A stretch of 64,000 nucleotides of DNA from an uncultured Bacteroidales bacterium (GTDB lineage Bacteria > Bacteroidota > Bacteroidia > Bacteroidales > UBA932). The notes under the pieces were generated by a model, which did not search any database, was not told where the DNA came from, and was given only the letters and a program-made list of their open reading frames with translations. A program made the position numbers and the translations under genes. Positions within the stretch are counted from its first letter, which is position 1. Every line of letters starts with the position of its first letter. Location: contig CASEOO010000016.1 in NCBI GenBank assembly GCA_949289565.1, positions 1 through 64,000 of the forward strand, in the 5' to 3' direction. Of this stretch, positions 42,861 through 46,384 are shown in pieces.

Positions 42861-42879
42861 ACCGACATCTGCAAACGTG

Positions 42880-44229
42880 ATGCTCATTTCATCGAACTCA
42901 AGATATTTAAAACATTACGGACCGCTGGCAAGTCTCGGACTTCCTATCATAATCGGGCAGCTGGGCATCATCCTGGTAAGCTTCGCAGACACTATGATGG
43001 TGGGCCACTACAGGACTAGCGACTTGGCGGCGGCCAGTTTTGTGAACAATGTTTTCAACCTCGTCATCATCTTCTCGACGGGGTTTTCCTATGGTCTTAC
43101 CCCTATAGCCGGAAGGCTTTTCGGGAAATCAGACTTCCGCGGAGTGGGACGGCTTCTGAAAAACAGCCTTGCGGCCAATTCCTTGATAGCGGTGATTCTG
43201 ATGCTGTTCATGACTGCGGTGTATCTGAACGTCGGCAGACTGGGCCAGCCTGCGGAACTTCTGCCGCTGATCCGCCCTTACTTTCTGGTGCTGCTGGCTT
43301 CGCTTCTGCCGATATTGCTGTTCAACGCATTCAAGCAATTCGCTGACGGCATCACAGACACCGTCACACCTATGTGGATACTGCTGCTTAGCAACGTAGT
43401 GAATATCTTCGGGAACTGGTGCCTTATCTTCGGAAAGCTTGGATTTCCTGAAATGGGACTGCTCGGAGCAGGAATTTCCACACTCATATCCAGGATATTG
43501 ACTGTCGTGATATTCGCGGCCATCTTCTTTTTTTCGAAGAAATATGCTCCTTACCGCGAAGGATTCCTGTCCTCCAGGGTAAACAGCAGAGATTTCAGGA
43601 CTTTGAACCGTTTGGGATGGCCGGTGGGCCTGCAGATGGGGATGGAGACCGGCTCATTCAGCCTCGCCACCATCATGGTGGGATGGCTGGGAACACTGGC
43701 ACTGGCAGCTCATCAGGTGATGCTCACGGTGGGACAGCTTGGATTTATGCTTTATTATGGCATGGCGGCGGCCATTGCCGTCAGGACAAGCCATTTTCTC
43801 GGCCAGGGTGATATAAAGAATGTCAGCGATTCGTCATCTGCCGGATTCCAGCTGATTCTGATAATGGCGGCAGTGGTATCGTCATTAATTTTCGCATTCA
43901 GGCACAGCATAGGTGGACTGTTTTCAGAAAACCCTGAGGTAGCTTTGACAGTGGCGCAGCTGGTGATTCCTTTTATTATTTACCAGTTCGGAGACGGAAT
44001 GCAGTGCGCTTATTCGAATGCTTTACGGGGGATTTCCGATGTAAAGCCTGTGGTGCTGATAGCATTCATCGCCTATTTCGTGGTCTCGCTTCCGGCAGGA
44101 TACATTTTCGGTTTTGTCTGCAAATGGGGGCTGACAGGAATCTGGATGTCATTCCCGCTTGGACTCACAGCCGCAGGAGTGATGTATTACCTTCGGTTCC
44201 GCCATACCGTCAGGCAAATGAAACAGTAA
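42880..44229 (+). CDS. MATE family multidrug/cation antiporter
   Basis: A 449-residue, twelve-segment membrane transporter in two homologous halves. GLPIIIGQLGIILVSFADTMMVGHY at the N-terminus and GWPVGLQMGMETGSFSLATIMVG in the middle are the paired first helices of a MATE protein. It would export cationic compounds using H+ or Na+. It starts 19 bases after rho and probably shares its transcript. A GTG directly precedes the chosen ATG. Confidence 0.92.
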   Translation: MLISSNSRYLKHYGPLASLGLPIIIGQLGIILVSFADTMMVGHYRTSDLAAASFVNNVFNLVIIFSTGFSYGLTPIAGRLFGKSDFRGVGRLLKNSLAANSLIAVILMLFMTAVYLNVGRLGQPAELLPLIRPYFLVLLASLLPILLFNAFKQFADGITDTVTPMWILLLSNVVNIFGNWCLIFGKLGFPEMGLLGAGISTLISRILTVVIFAAIFFFSKKYAPYREGFLSSRVNSRDFRTLNRLGWPVGLQMGMETGSFSLATIMVGWLGTLALAAHQVMLTVGQLGFMLYYGMAAAIAVRTSHFLGQGDIKNVSDSSSAGFQLILIMAAVVSSLIFAFRHSIGGLFSENPEVALTVAQLVIPFIIYQFGDGMQCAYSNALRGISDVKPVVLIAFIAYFVVSLPAGYIFGFVCKWGLTGIWMSFPLGLTAAGVMYYLRFRHTVRQMKQ

Positions 44230-44241
44230 CCTTTTATATAT

Positions 44242-44358
44242 AAAAAAAATGAGAATCGACACTCACGTGCAGACCCTCATACTAACCACATAATTAATAA
44301 CACTAAAACTAATAACCAACATGCTGTAAGTGTCTTGGATCACACTTGACCAGCACGA
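44242..44358 (-). ncRNA. Candidate sigma-54-driven small RNA
   Basis: No protein frame fits this gap. On the minus strand, a sigma-54-like promoter (44369-44384) predicts a start near 44358. Downstream come a 6-bp hairpin (arms 44328-44333 and 44342-44347), a U/G-rich unpaired stretch, and a hairpin with 5-bp outer arms (ATGAG 44249-44253 / CTCAT 44276-44280) that runs into eight U (44242-44249). Together these describe an RNA of about 117 bases. This is an inference from motif order only; no family is recognised. Confidence 0.35.
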
Positions 44359-44368
44359 CTAAGAAATT

Positions 44369-44384
44369 AGCAACATCTGTGCCA
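44369..44384 (-). promoter_or_regulatory. Sigma-54-like -24/-12 promoter
   Basis: Minus-strand TGGCAC-AGATG-TTGC-T: full match to TGGCAC-N5-TTGCW, with GG and GC in the required spacing. It sits just downstream of the topB stop and points away from topB. Confidence 0.45.
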
Positions 44385-44430
44385 AAATCTGATTTTTTTC
44401 AAAAAACTCTCGATTTTATACAATTTTTCT

Positions 44431-46248
44431 TTAATTTTCGGACAGGACATTGATAACAATGGTTTTGACCATAGCCTTGAGCTCATCCAGAAATGCAGAG
44501 GCCTGATACGTCCCCGCCTCAATCATGCGAAGTTTTTTCTCCCACAGTCCTGTAAGTTCAGCGCTTTTCAGGAGTTCTTCATGGATAGTGGCCACCAGTT
44601 CCTTTCCGGTCTGAGTCGGATACAGGCTTTTACGCTCTTTCCTGATATAGTTTCTTTTATAAAGAGTCTCGATAATGGCCGCCCTGGTTGAAGGCCGGCC
44701 TATGCCGTTCTCTTTCAAAGCATCACGCAGTTCCTCATTCTCCACAGACTTGCCGGCAGTCTCCATGGCGCGCAGAAGGGTGGCCTCTGTAAATGGCTTC
44801 GGAGGCGTGGTCCATGTCTCCTTCAGGAACGGGTTGTGCGGCCCGCACTCCCCCGCCTTGAATTCAGGCAAGACTGTATTGGCGTCCTCTTTGGAATCCA
44901 CGGCGTCATTGTCCGGCGTCTGCCGGACATCCTGAATATCTCCCGTATTGGCCTGGCTCTGGCCGGAAACGAAAATGACCCTCCATCCCGGCTTGACAAT
45001 CCTCTTGCCAGTGGTCTTGAATTCGATTCCTGCGGCTTTTCCCAAGACAGTCGTGGTGGAGATCTCGCAATCAGGATAAAATGCGGCTATAAATCTTCTG
45101 GCCACCAGGTCAAAGACTTTCTTTTCATCCGGCGTCAATGACAGCGACGGCATTCCCGTAGGAATAATAGCATGATGGTCAGTGACTTTCGAATTGTCAA
45201 AAACCTTCTTGCTTTTCGGCAGCTTCCGGCCCGCAAGCGAAGATGTATATGCTTCATACCCTGTCAGGCCTTGAAGTATCTTGGGCACTTTCGGATAAAT
45301 GTCATCACTCAGGAAAGTGGTGTCGACCCTCGGGTAAGTCGTGATTTTCTTCTCGTACAGCGACTGGATGAGCTTCAGTGTCTCATCTGCGCTGAAGCCG
45401 TATTTCTTGTTGCATTCCACCTGCAGAGATGTCAGGTCGAAAAGGCGGGGAGGAGCTTCTTTCCCTTTCTTTTCAGCTACATCTGTAACTGTAAAATCCG
45501 TTCCGGATACCTCAGACAGAAACTTTTCACCGGCTTCCTTGTCATCAAACTTGCCTTTCGAAGCTGTGAATGTGACATCCCTGTAGACCGTCTTGAGCTC
45601 CCAGTAAGGTGCCGGCACAAAATGGTCTATTTCTTCCTGGCGGTTCACTATCATGGCCAGTGTGGGAGTCTGGACCCGGCCGATGGAAAGAACCTGCCTG
45701 TTCTGTGCATACCTCAGAGTATAAAGCCGCGTGGCATTGATACCGAGAACCCAGTCTCCTATGGCTCTGGCGAGACCGGCTTCGTACAGAAGCTTGAAAT
45801 CTGACTCGGGCTTCAGGTGCTGGAAGCCTTCCCTGATGGACTCCTCGGTCAAAGAAGATATCCAAAGCCTCTTGACCGGGCATTTAGCCCCAGCCTTGAG
45901 CATCACCCAGCGCTGGATAAGCTCCCCTTCCTGGCCCGCATCTCCGCAATTTATAATCTCGTCGGCATTCTGCATCAATGTCTTGATAACAGAAAACTGC
46001 TGGCTGTATACATCGTTGTCAATCAGCTTGATGCCAAACCGCGGCGGAATCATGGGCAGGGTGGAAAGCATCCACGGCTTCCATTGCGGGCTGTAATCGT
46101 GAGGTTCTTTCAGGGTGCACAGATGTCCGAAAGTCCAGGTAACTTGATAACCGTTCCCCTCAAGGTACCCCTGCCTCTTCGCAGTTGCCCCCAGCACCCC
46201 GGCTATTTCTTTCGCCACACTCGGCTTCTCCGCTATACAGACAATCAT
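44431..46248 (-). CDS. topB: DNA topoisomerase III (type IA)
   Basis: A 605-residue type IA topoisomerase: TOPRIM domain (IVCIAEKPSVAKEIAGVLGA, NCGDAGQEGELIQRW with the metal-binding DxxxxE), and the active-site tyrosine region KKITTYPRVDTTFLSDD. C-terminal to it come RPSTRAAIIETLYKRNYI and KELVATIHEE. It decatenates single-stranded DNA in recombination and replication. No C-terminal zinc fingers are present. The ATG at 46248 is used; the frame extends upstream but the family starts at MIVCIAEKPSVA. Confidence 0.93.
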   Translation of the reverse strand: MIVCIAEKPSVAKEIAGVLGATAKRQGYLEGNGYQVTWTFGHLCTLKEPHDYSPQWKPWMLSTLPMIPPRFGIKLIDNDVYSQQFSVIKTLMQNADEIINCGDAGQEGELIQRWVMLKAGAKCPVKRLWISSLTEESIREGFQHLKPESDFKLLYEAGLARAIGDWVLGINATRLYTLRYAQNRQVLSIGRVQTPTLAMIVNRQEEIDHFVPAPYWELKTVYRDVTFTASKGKFDDKEAGEKFLSEVSGTDFTVTDVAEKKGKEAPPRLFDLTSLQVECNKKYGFSADETLKLIQSLYEKKITTYPRVDTTFLSDDIYPKVPKILQGLTGYEAYTSSLAGRKLPKSKKVFDNSKVTDHHAIIPTGMPSLSLTPDEKKVFDLVARRFIAAFYPDCEISTTTVLGKAAGIEFKTTGKRIVKPGWRVIFVSGQSQANTGDIQDVRQTPDNDAVDSKEDANTVLPEFKAGECGPHNPFLKETWTTPPKPFTEATLLRAMETAGKSVENEELRDALKENGIGRPSTRAAIIETLYKRNYIRKERKSLYPTQTGKELVATIHEELLKSAELTGLWEKKLRMIEAGTYQASAFLDELKAMVKTIVINVLSEN

Positions 46249-46384
46249 ATCCTGTTGTTTCTTAATCCCCTGCCACGTGGCGCTCGTGCCTCGCAATGCC
46301 TGCGGGCCTTTCATGTTCTATATGGAAAAGGGGGTGGCAAAATTAATTCAATTTTGAAAATGGCCAAGCAAGATTCCTGAAAAT

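Follow-up and report, generated by a model that had tools for sequence, protein, structure and literature searches.

A predicted sigma-54-dependent small RNA of a repeated family between the MATE and topB genes of a Cryptobacteroides genome

The gap between a MATE-family transporter gene and a topB-like gene in the window analyzed here (the whole stretch of DNA under study, 64 kb of a Cryptobacteroides genome) quite probably harbors the gene of a trans-acting small RNA (sRNA) that would be transcribed from an RpoN (sigma-54) -24/-12 promoter, end at its own terminator, and repress SusC start regions through its core. Sequence comparisons make the predicted gene, its promoter, structure, and family, and its link to sigma-54 well supported. 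For expression, the activator used, the signal, and the repression of SusC, we infer the following course. RNA polymerase carrying RpoN would transcribe the RNA from the -24/-12 promoter, fired by one of the two sigma-54 activator ATPases of the genome, and the intrinsic terminator would end it. The exposed U/G-rich core would then pair with translation-initiation regions of mRNAs for SusC-type outer-membrane transporters, which would be repressed while the activator's signal is on. The window RNA would be the sigma-54-driven member of a paralogous family (family A), most other members of which would depend on sigma-ABfr, and the sigma-54 output set would include, besides family A, the sRNA families B and C and a gene for a DUF4783 protein. 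A sigma-54-controlled sRNA at this place had been proposed from the letters of the window, and that reading, still a prediction, gains support from the presence of rpoN, from the conservation of promoter, hairpins, and core in relatives, and from a +1 that fits the 5' end set by homology. The original prediction treated the RNA singly and missed its membership in a repeated family.

The MATE gene (42877..44229, plus strand; PF01554, E 2.4e-53) is the convergent neighbor of the predicted RNA, and the topB-like DNA topoisomerase gene (44431..46314, minus strand; PF01131, E 2.1e-115) is its upstream neighbor on the same strand. Between their ends no credible gene was found, in agreement with the gene-free gap originally described; the sole listed open reading frame of at least 40 aa on the RNA strand of the gap is a chance frame of 51 aa (44367-44522) that spans the promoter and not the RNA. 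The RNA is predicted to extend from 44358 to 44242 on the minus strand, 117 nt, in line with the roughly 117 bases first estimated, with a minimum free energy of -32.9 kcal/mol (z = -3.4; 1 of 200 shuffles was equally good). It begins with a 5' hairpin of two stacked stems (44320..44357), an outer one of 7 bp and an inner one of 6 bp. This is followed by the U/G-rich core GGTTATTAGTTTTAGTGTTATTAATTATGTGGTTA (44283..44317), presumed to be a base-pairing seed from its conservation and its SusC pairing relative to shuffles, and by an intrinsic terminator (44242..44279) composed of a hairpin with a GUGA tetraloop (44279-44250) and eight U (44249-44242). The 6-bp hairpin noted earlier corresponds to the inner stem, its outer 7-bp part having been overlooked; the U/G-rich stretch, the second hairpin, and the eight U were all found in the proposed order. 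A simple terminator scan did not list the terminator at 44242-44279, probably because of a 1x1 internal loop.

Both hairpins show compensatory changes among related copies. In 11 gap-poor family-A copies, selected for the hairpin type of the window copy (a choice that favors this structure), two-sided compensatory changes occur in 12 of 25 pairs, namely in 8 of the 13 pairs of the 5' hairpin and 4 of the 12 pairs of the terminator stem; shuffles gave 5.0 ± 1.5 such pairs and slid controls 0 to 3. The core is predicted to be partly paired in many copies, and this pairing is beyond the reach of covariation because the core never varies. RNAalifold, run on 33 family-A copies (7 of 40 distinct copies were excluded on visual inspection for an odd shape or repeats: L008, two of L017, L040, L053, L057, and L058), returned weak pairs in the invariant core, where covariation is blind, and the 11-copy count was used instead.

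The putative promoter, TGGCACAGATGTTGCT (44384-44369, minus strand; TGGCAC-N5-TTGCT), matches TGGCAC-N5-TTGCW with no mismatch, as originally claimed, and no second exact match occurs in the 64 kb. Its assignment to sigma-54 draws on the exact motif, its conservation in six copies, and the rpoN gene of the genome. Shuffled windows held a mean of 0.10 exact matches and at least one was present in 10 of 100 shuffles, so the motif taken alone is only moderately unusual; when up to two mismatches are allowed, the 33 matches in the window are at the chance level (36.7 expected). A chance match, called possible but unlikely at the outset, was rejected as an explanation: the motif alone is not decisive, but its conservation and the equivalent sites before families B and C are. 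With C44370 set as -12, the +1 is predicted at 44358, the position at which the 5' end of the RNA was set independently through homology to sigma-ABfr-driven paralogs; the -24/-12 element is thus correctly spaced from the 5' end. In an alignment of six sigma-54-type family-A copies, TTTGGCA and TTGC are invariant and the flanks variable, and the distance from the element to the hairpin matches across the six genomes. Upstream, the region from -55 to -29 showed little conservation over 20 sigma-54 sites, and no upstream activator site was identified within it; an activator without a detected DNA-binding domain may need none.

The earlier suggestion to look for rpoN in the genome led to a complete gene, encoding one 470-aa protein with all three domains (PF00309, PF04963, and PF04552; AID, CBD, and DBD). 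It should be noted that rpoN was present in all 26 genus genomes tested, and its presence alone therefore cannot tell which copies use RpoN. Seven matches to PF00158 were found in the window's genome, two of which are full sigma-54 activators. One combines a receiver (REC) and an AAA+ domain, has no detected helix-turn-helix (HTH), and adjoins a 1204-aa histidine kinase; the other combines an AAA+ domain with a Fis-type HTH (HTH_8). At L132/L139, the NtrC-like response regulator with no detected HTH (L139:2278-3426) beside the 1204-aa histidine kinase lies about 5 kb from the family-B sRNA.

A looser-pattern search of the window's genome included four exact TGGCAC-N5-TTGCW sites, and eight further genomes held 18, compared to 5 for the backwards pattern. 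Three of the eight had been chosen because a sigma-54-type family-A copy is present in them, the other five for quality (94-100% complete, outside the sigma-54-type set); the nine exact sites of the latter five comprise seven at families B or C and two before tRNA-Cys/core chimeras. Over all nine genomes, 18 of the 22 exact sites precede sRNA families (4 A, 6 B, and 8 C), and a terminator follows precisely these 18. For comparison, 3 of 26 TGGC-but-not-TGGCAC sites in the window's genome have one, as do 134 of 1560 random positions. The remaining four exact sites are two upstream of a tRNA-Cys and a family-A core, one in a coding region (L115), and one that is intergenic and assigned to no family (L089). 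The last (G000:C21:74674) is the fourth exact site of the window's genome (TGGCAC-N5-TTGCT), directly after a gene that by eye is esterase-like; it is followed by a U-run and a hairpin of longer loop, which the terminator filter missed, and no counterpart was found in the eight other genomes.

The core of family B is CGGTTAGTTTAGTTGTTAATAATAGGGTTATAG, with small variants, and that of family C is GAATAGTTTTTTCATAGGTTAAGTTTTAGGTTAG. A TGGC-N8-TGC element stands shortly before the start codon of the preceding gene in all six family-B loci, this gene being DUF4783 by Pfam in the window's genome and by similarity and position elsewhere. At L077, L110, L111, L119, L121, and L125, the DUF4783-like gene and the family-B sRNA are arranged in tandem, and a separate -24/-12 element belongs to each of the two. 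The family C core was found with up to two mismatches in 6 of 295 genomes of the order: the window's, G245, G524, and three of another family. Control of family C by sigma-54 is thus predicted in more than one genus: G524, of another genus in the same family, keeps the exact -24/-12 motif (TGGCACAGCATTTGCT; locus L126) at the matching place upstream. In the three genomes of the other family, TACCTTTG, which resembles sigma-ABfr promoters, is found upstream of the core instead; a core similar to that of family C thus sits under a predicted sigma-ABfr promoter in another family.

Pairing of the cores with SusC mRNAs was evaluated over 23 start regions. These derive from 39 SusC matches in the window's genome, 30 of them with loci; the first in-frame ATG was taken as the start, and L148, L156, L162, L168, L169, L172, and L174 were excluded, before energies were calculated, for an unclear start or a cut gene. 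Mean duplex energies were -17.5, -14.3, and -14.2 kcal/mol for cores A, B, and C, values that 0, 1, and 1 of 150 dinucleotide-shuffled sRNAs reached; when 44 start regions of the window served as controls, the energies of the respective cores were reached by 124, 137, and 30 of 150 shuffles. Relative to shuffled mRNAs, mean z was -1.07, -0.78, and -0.60, compared to +0.26, -0.08, and -0.21 for the reversed cores. The preference of the cores for SusC is a weak signal at the level of the set and no proof for any single target; it suggests that SusC transporters are repressed in the manner of FopS, with sigma-54 in control. No near-perfect target emerged when complements of the family C core, the only core so searched, were sought at start codons, a search in which the backwards control also gave one hit; the family C complements recovered were its own gene and, with two mismatches, the start of a non-SusC open reading frame (C27:53580), neither a clear target.

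A sigma-54-dependent RNA could instead be a sponge that titrates a protein or other RNAs, a reading that is unlikely but retains a real chance. In length and conservation the core far exceeds what a short seed requires, and the FopS sRNAs of Bacteroides are reported to bind the protein RbpB (PMC11697453). Two results weigh against a sponge: families A, B, and C differ in sequence yet each prefers SusC start regions, and no RRM_1 protein (PF00076, a family that includes RbpB) was found in the window's genome, which is 96% complete, in a search whose Bacteroides control was positive. If base pairing with SusC mRNAs is the function, another helper, or none, would therefore serve.

Family A is widespread in Cryptobacteroides. 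When the spacer was used as a BLAST query, 23 of the 41 genomes searched gave matches; one of these is the window's own genome, where another copy aligns at 91% over 97 nt of the spacer. The 33-nt inner core is present exactly in 318 of 400 genus genomes and in 131 of the 150 good ones, with no occurrence of the backwards pattern; there are 0 to 4 exact cores per genome and two in the window's. These exact-pattern counts are lower bounds. The genus genomes are fragmented, and those with names, at least, are assemblies of uncultured bacteria. In most copies, a 5' hairpin whose sequence changes precedes the invariant core, and a terminator comes after it; the core columns are invariant in alignment A1, the copies of which were selected by this core. 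Conservation of promoter and hairpins, a check proposed with the original prediction, was found in relatives and extends to the core. Sigma-54-type copies are rare: the -24/-12 element followed by the core was found in 5 of 400 genus genomes (the window's, G276, G057, G068, and G262; none for the backwards control), and a scan of genome contigs gave five loci, four in genomes already found and one (L103) in a sixth genome.

The surroundings of these copies bear on the possibility that the predicted RNA is simply the topB terminator with a long 3' UTR, which processing might turn into an RNA, and that the -24/-12 match is accidental. On the same strand, just 73 nt separate the topB stop codon from the predicted +1 downstream of it, and one Bacteroides FopS member is described as derived from a 3' UTR (PMC11697453). 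In G276 and G057, topB and MATE, named by similarity to the window's proteins, again flank the copy. However, the copies are not always downstream of topB: the same RNA, motif, and spacing occur behind another gene (epimerase-like by eye) in G068 and L103, with MATE still near, and at an unrelated genomic place, behind yet another gene, in G262. The promoter is thus conserved with the RNA and not with topB. As the motif is invariant and its flanks are not, and as families B and C have the same layout of promoter and RNA, an origin from topB is very improbable.

It is similarly improbable, and if anything a little more so, that a genuine family-A sRNA is driven here by sigma-ABfr or another sigma factor. 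The sigma-ABfr element TAnnTTTG stands shortly upstream of most other family-A copies read, including the paralog in the window's genome (L022; TACCTTTG), and FopS genes are reported to use sigma-ABfr (PMC11697453). Against this, the 115 nt that precede the inner core contain no TAnnTTTG, either in the window copy or in the copies of G276, G057, G068, and G262, and the conserved -24/-12 element stands exactly where needed. Five family-A copies without a 5' hairpin (L038, L041, L044, L046, and L049) have a sigma-ABfr -7 element that starts 15 nt before the inner core.

Family-A cores were also encountered in other surroundings. At L042, L043, L047, L051, L116, and L124, a tRNA-Cys(GCA) ends a few bases before a family-A core and terminator, and at L048 the tRNA is cut, with just its end present; this arrangement suggests that the sRNA is released from the tRNA 3' trailer. 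A TGGCAC-N5-TTGCW site lies upstream of the tRNA-Cys at L116 and L124. One viral contig (L175) carries core A and four (L176-L179) carry core C, with no recognized promoter just upstream, and two family-A copies at a contig end (L017; G015:C17) face each other across one common terminator hairpin, possibly an assembly effect. These cores after tRNA-Cys, on viral contigs, and in facing copies would suit a conserved DNA element such as an integration site or mobile repeat, a reading that is scarcely credible given the compensatory changes in both hairpins, the two promoter classes at fixed upstream places, and the terminator U-runs in most copies.

To the best of our knowledge, the role of RpoN in gut Bacteroidota is poorly understood. 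The terms sRNA and small RNA are absent from the available sections of a survey of sigma-54 regulons (PMC12316311), and the literature covered, which did not extend to most subscription journals or to any bioRxiv preprints, yielded no description of an sRNA in Bacteroidota that depends on sigma-54. The strongest -24/-12 sites of the genus point at sRNAs, which would give RpoN a concrete output and add a level of regulation above the control of SusC. Further, the sRNA families would seem to change hands between promoters, a given core being preceded by a sigma-ABfr promoter, a sigma-54 promoter, or a tRNA; since family C is preceded by a sigma-ABfr promoter in another Bacteroidales family and by a sigma-54 promoter here, the switch is directly testable. 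A bolder proposal, which we hold only tentatively, is that RpoN in Cryptobacteroides is mainly an sRNA sigma factor, whose best promoters would drive families A, B, and C and the DUF4783 gene in a joint shutdown of SusC synthesis, and whose activator may act from solution because no DNA-binding domain was detected in it.

Among known systems, family A is closest in character to the FopS sRNAs (Rfam RF04319; relative GibS), which in Bacteroides thetaiotaomicron are reported to bind SusC start regions (PMC11697453). Both are multicopy, carry an exposed U-rich seed directed at SusC start regions (for the core studied here, a complementarity seen in silico and for the set as a whole), and end in a terminator; further, UUUUUCAU and AGGUUA of the FopS consensus recur in the family C core. 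Family A differs in its 5' hairpin and in the sigma-54 promoter of the window copy, in place of sigma-ABfr. Rfam scores against RF04319 are 16.8 bits for the window and 26.5 for family C, below the gathering threshold of 56, and copy numbers are well short of the 12-15 FopS paralogs per Bacteroides genome. At gathering, Rfam finds one tRNA in the whole window and tRNAs only at nine A, B, C, or other loci, the rest being below it. Family A works like FopS in these respects but, because of the Rfam score, the promoter, the failure to find the protein partner, and the low copy number, is not filed as FopS. A second B. thetaiotaomicron promoter motif, PM2, drives GibS and is near-palindromic with -10 and -30 elements (PMC7366714); the available part of its description, which was compared as described rather than letter by letter, does not mention RpoN, and no link to PM2 was shown.

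The other likeness is to the sigma-54-dependent sRNAs of Proteobacteria, which also depend on RpoN and an activator and which, as with Qrr of Vibrio, can occur as several paralogs. GlmY of Escherichia coli, which we take to be sigma-54-dependent, and CrcZ/CrcY of Azotobacter, presumably so too, belong with Qrr to another phylum and are unrelated in sequence (no Rfam match at gathering); in contrast to these, family A swaps its promoter with sigma-ABfr inside one family. In enterobacteria, the sigma-E-dependent sRNAs RybB and MicA repress porins, and the logic, an alternative sigma factor that directs sRNAs to shut down outer-membrane protein synthesis, is alike, although by analogy only: sigma-54 with activators would take the place of an ECF sigma factor, and SusC transporters that of porins. 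If the bolder proposal were true, this circuit would be a sigma-54-based counterpart, in Bacteroidota, of the sigma-E/RybB/MicA envelope circuit, reached through promoters swapped onto FopS-like RNAs. The RNA of the window would combine two known kinds, a FopS-like sRNA and a sigma-54-dependent sRNA.
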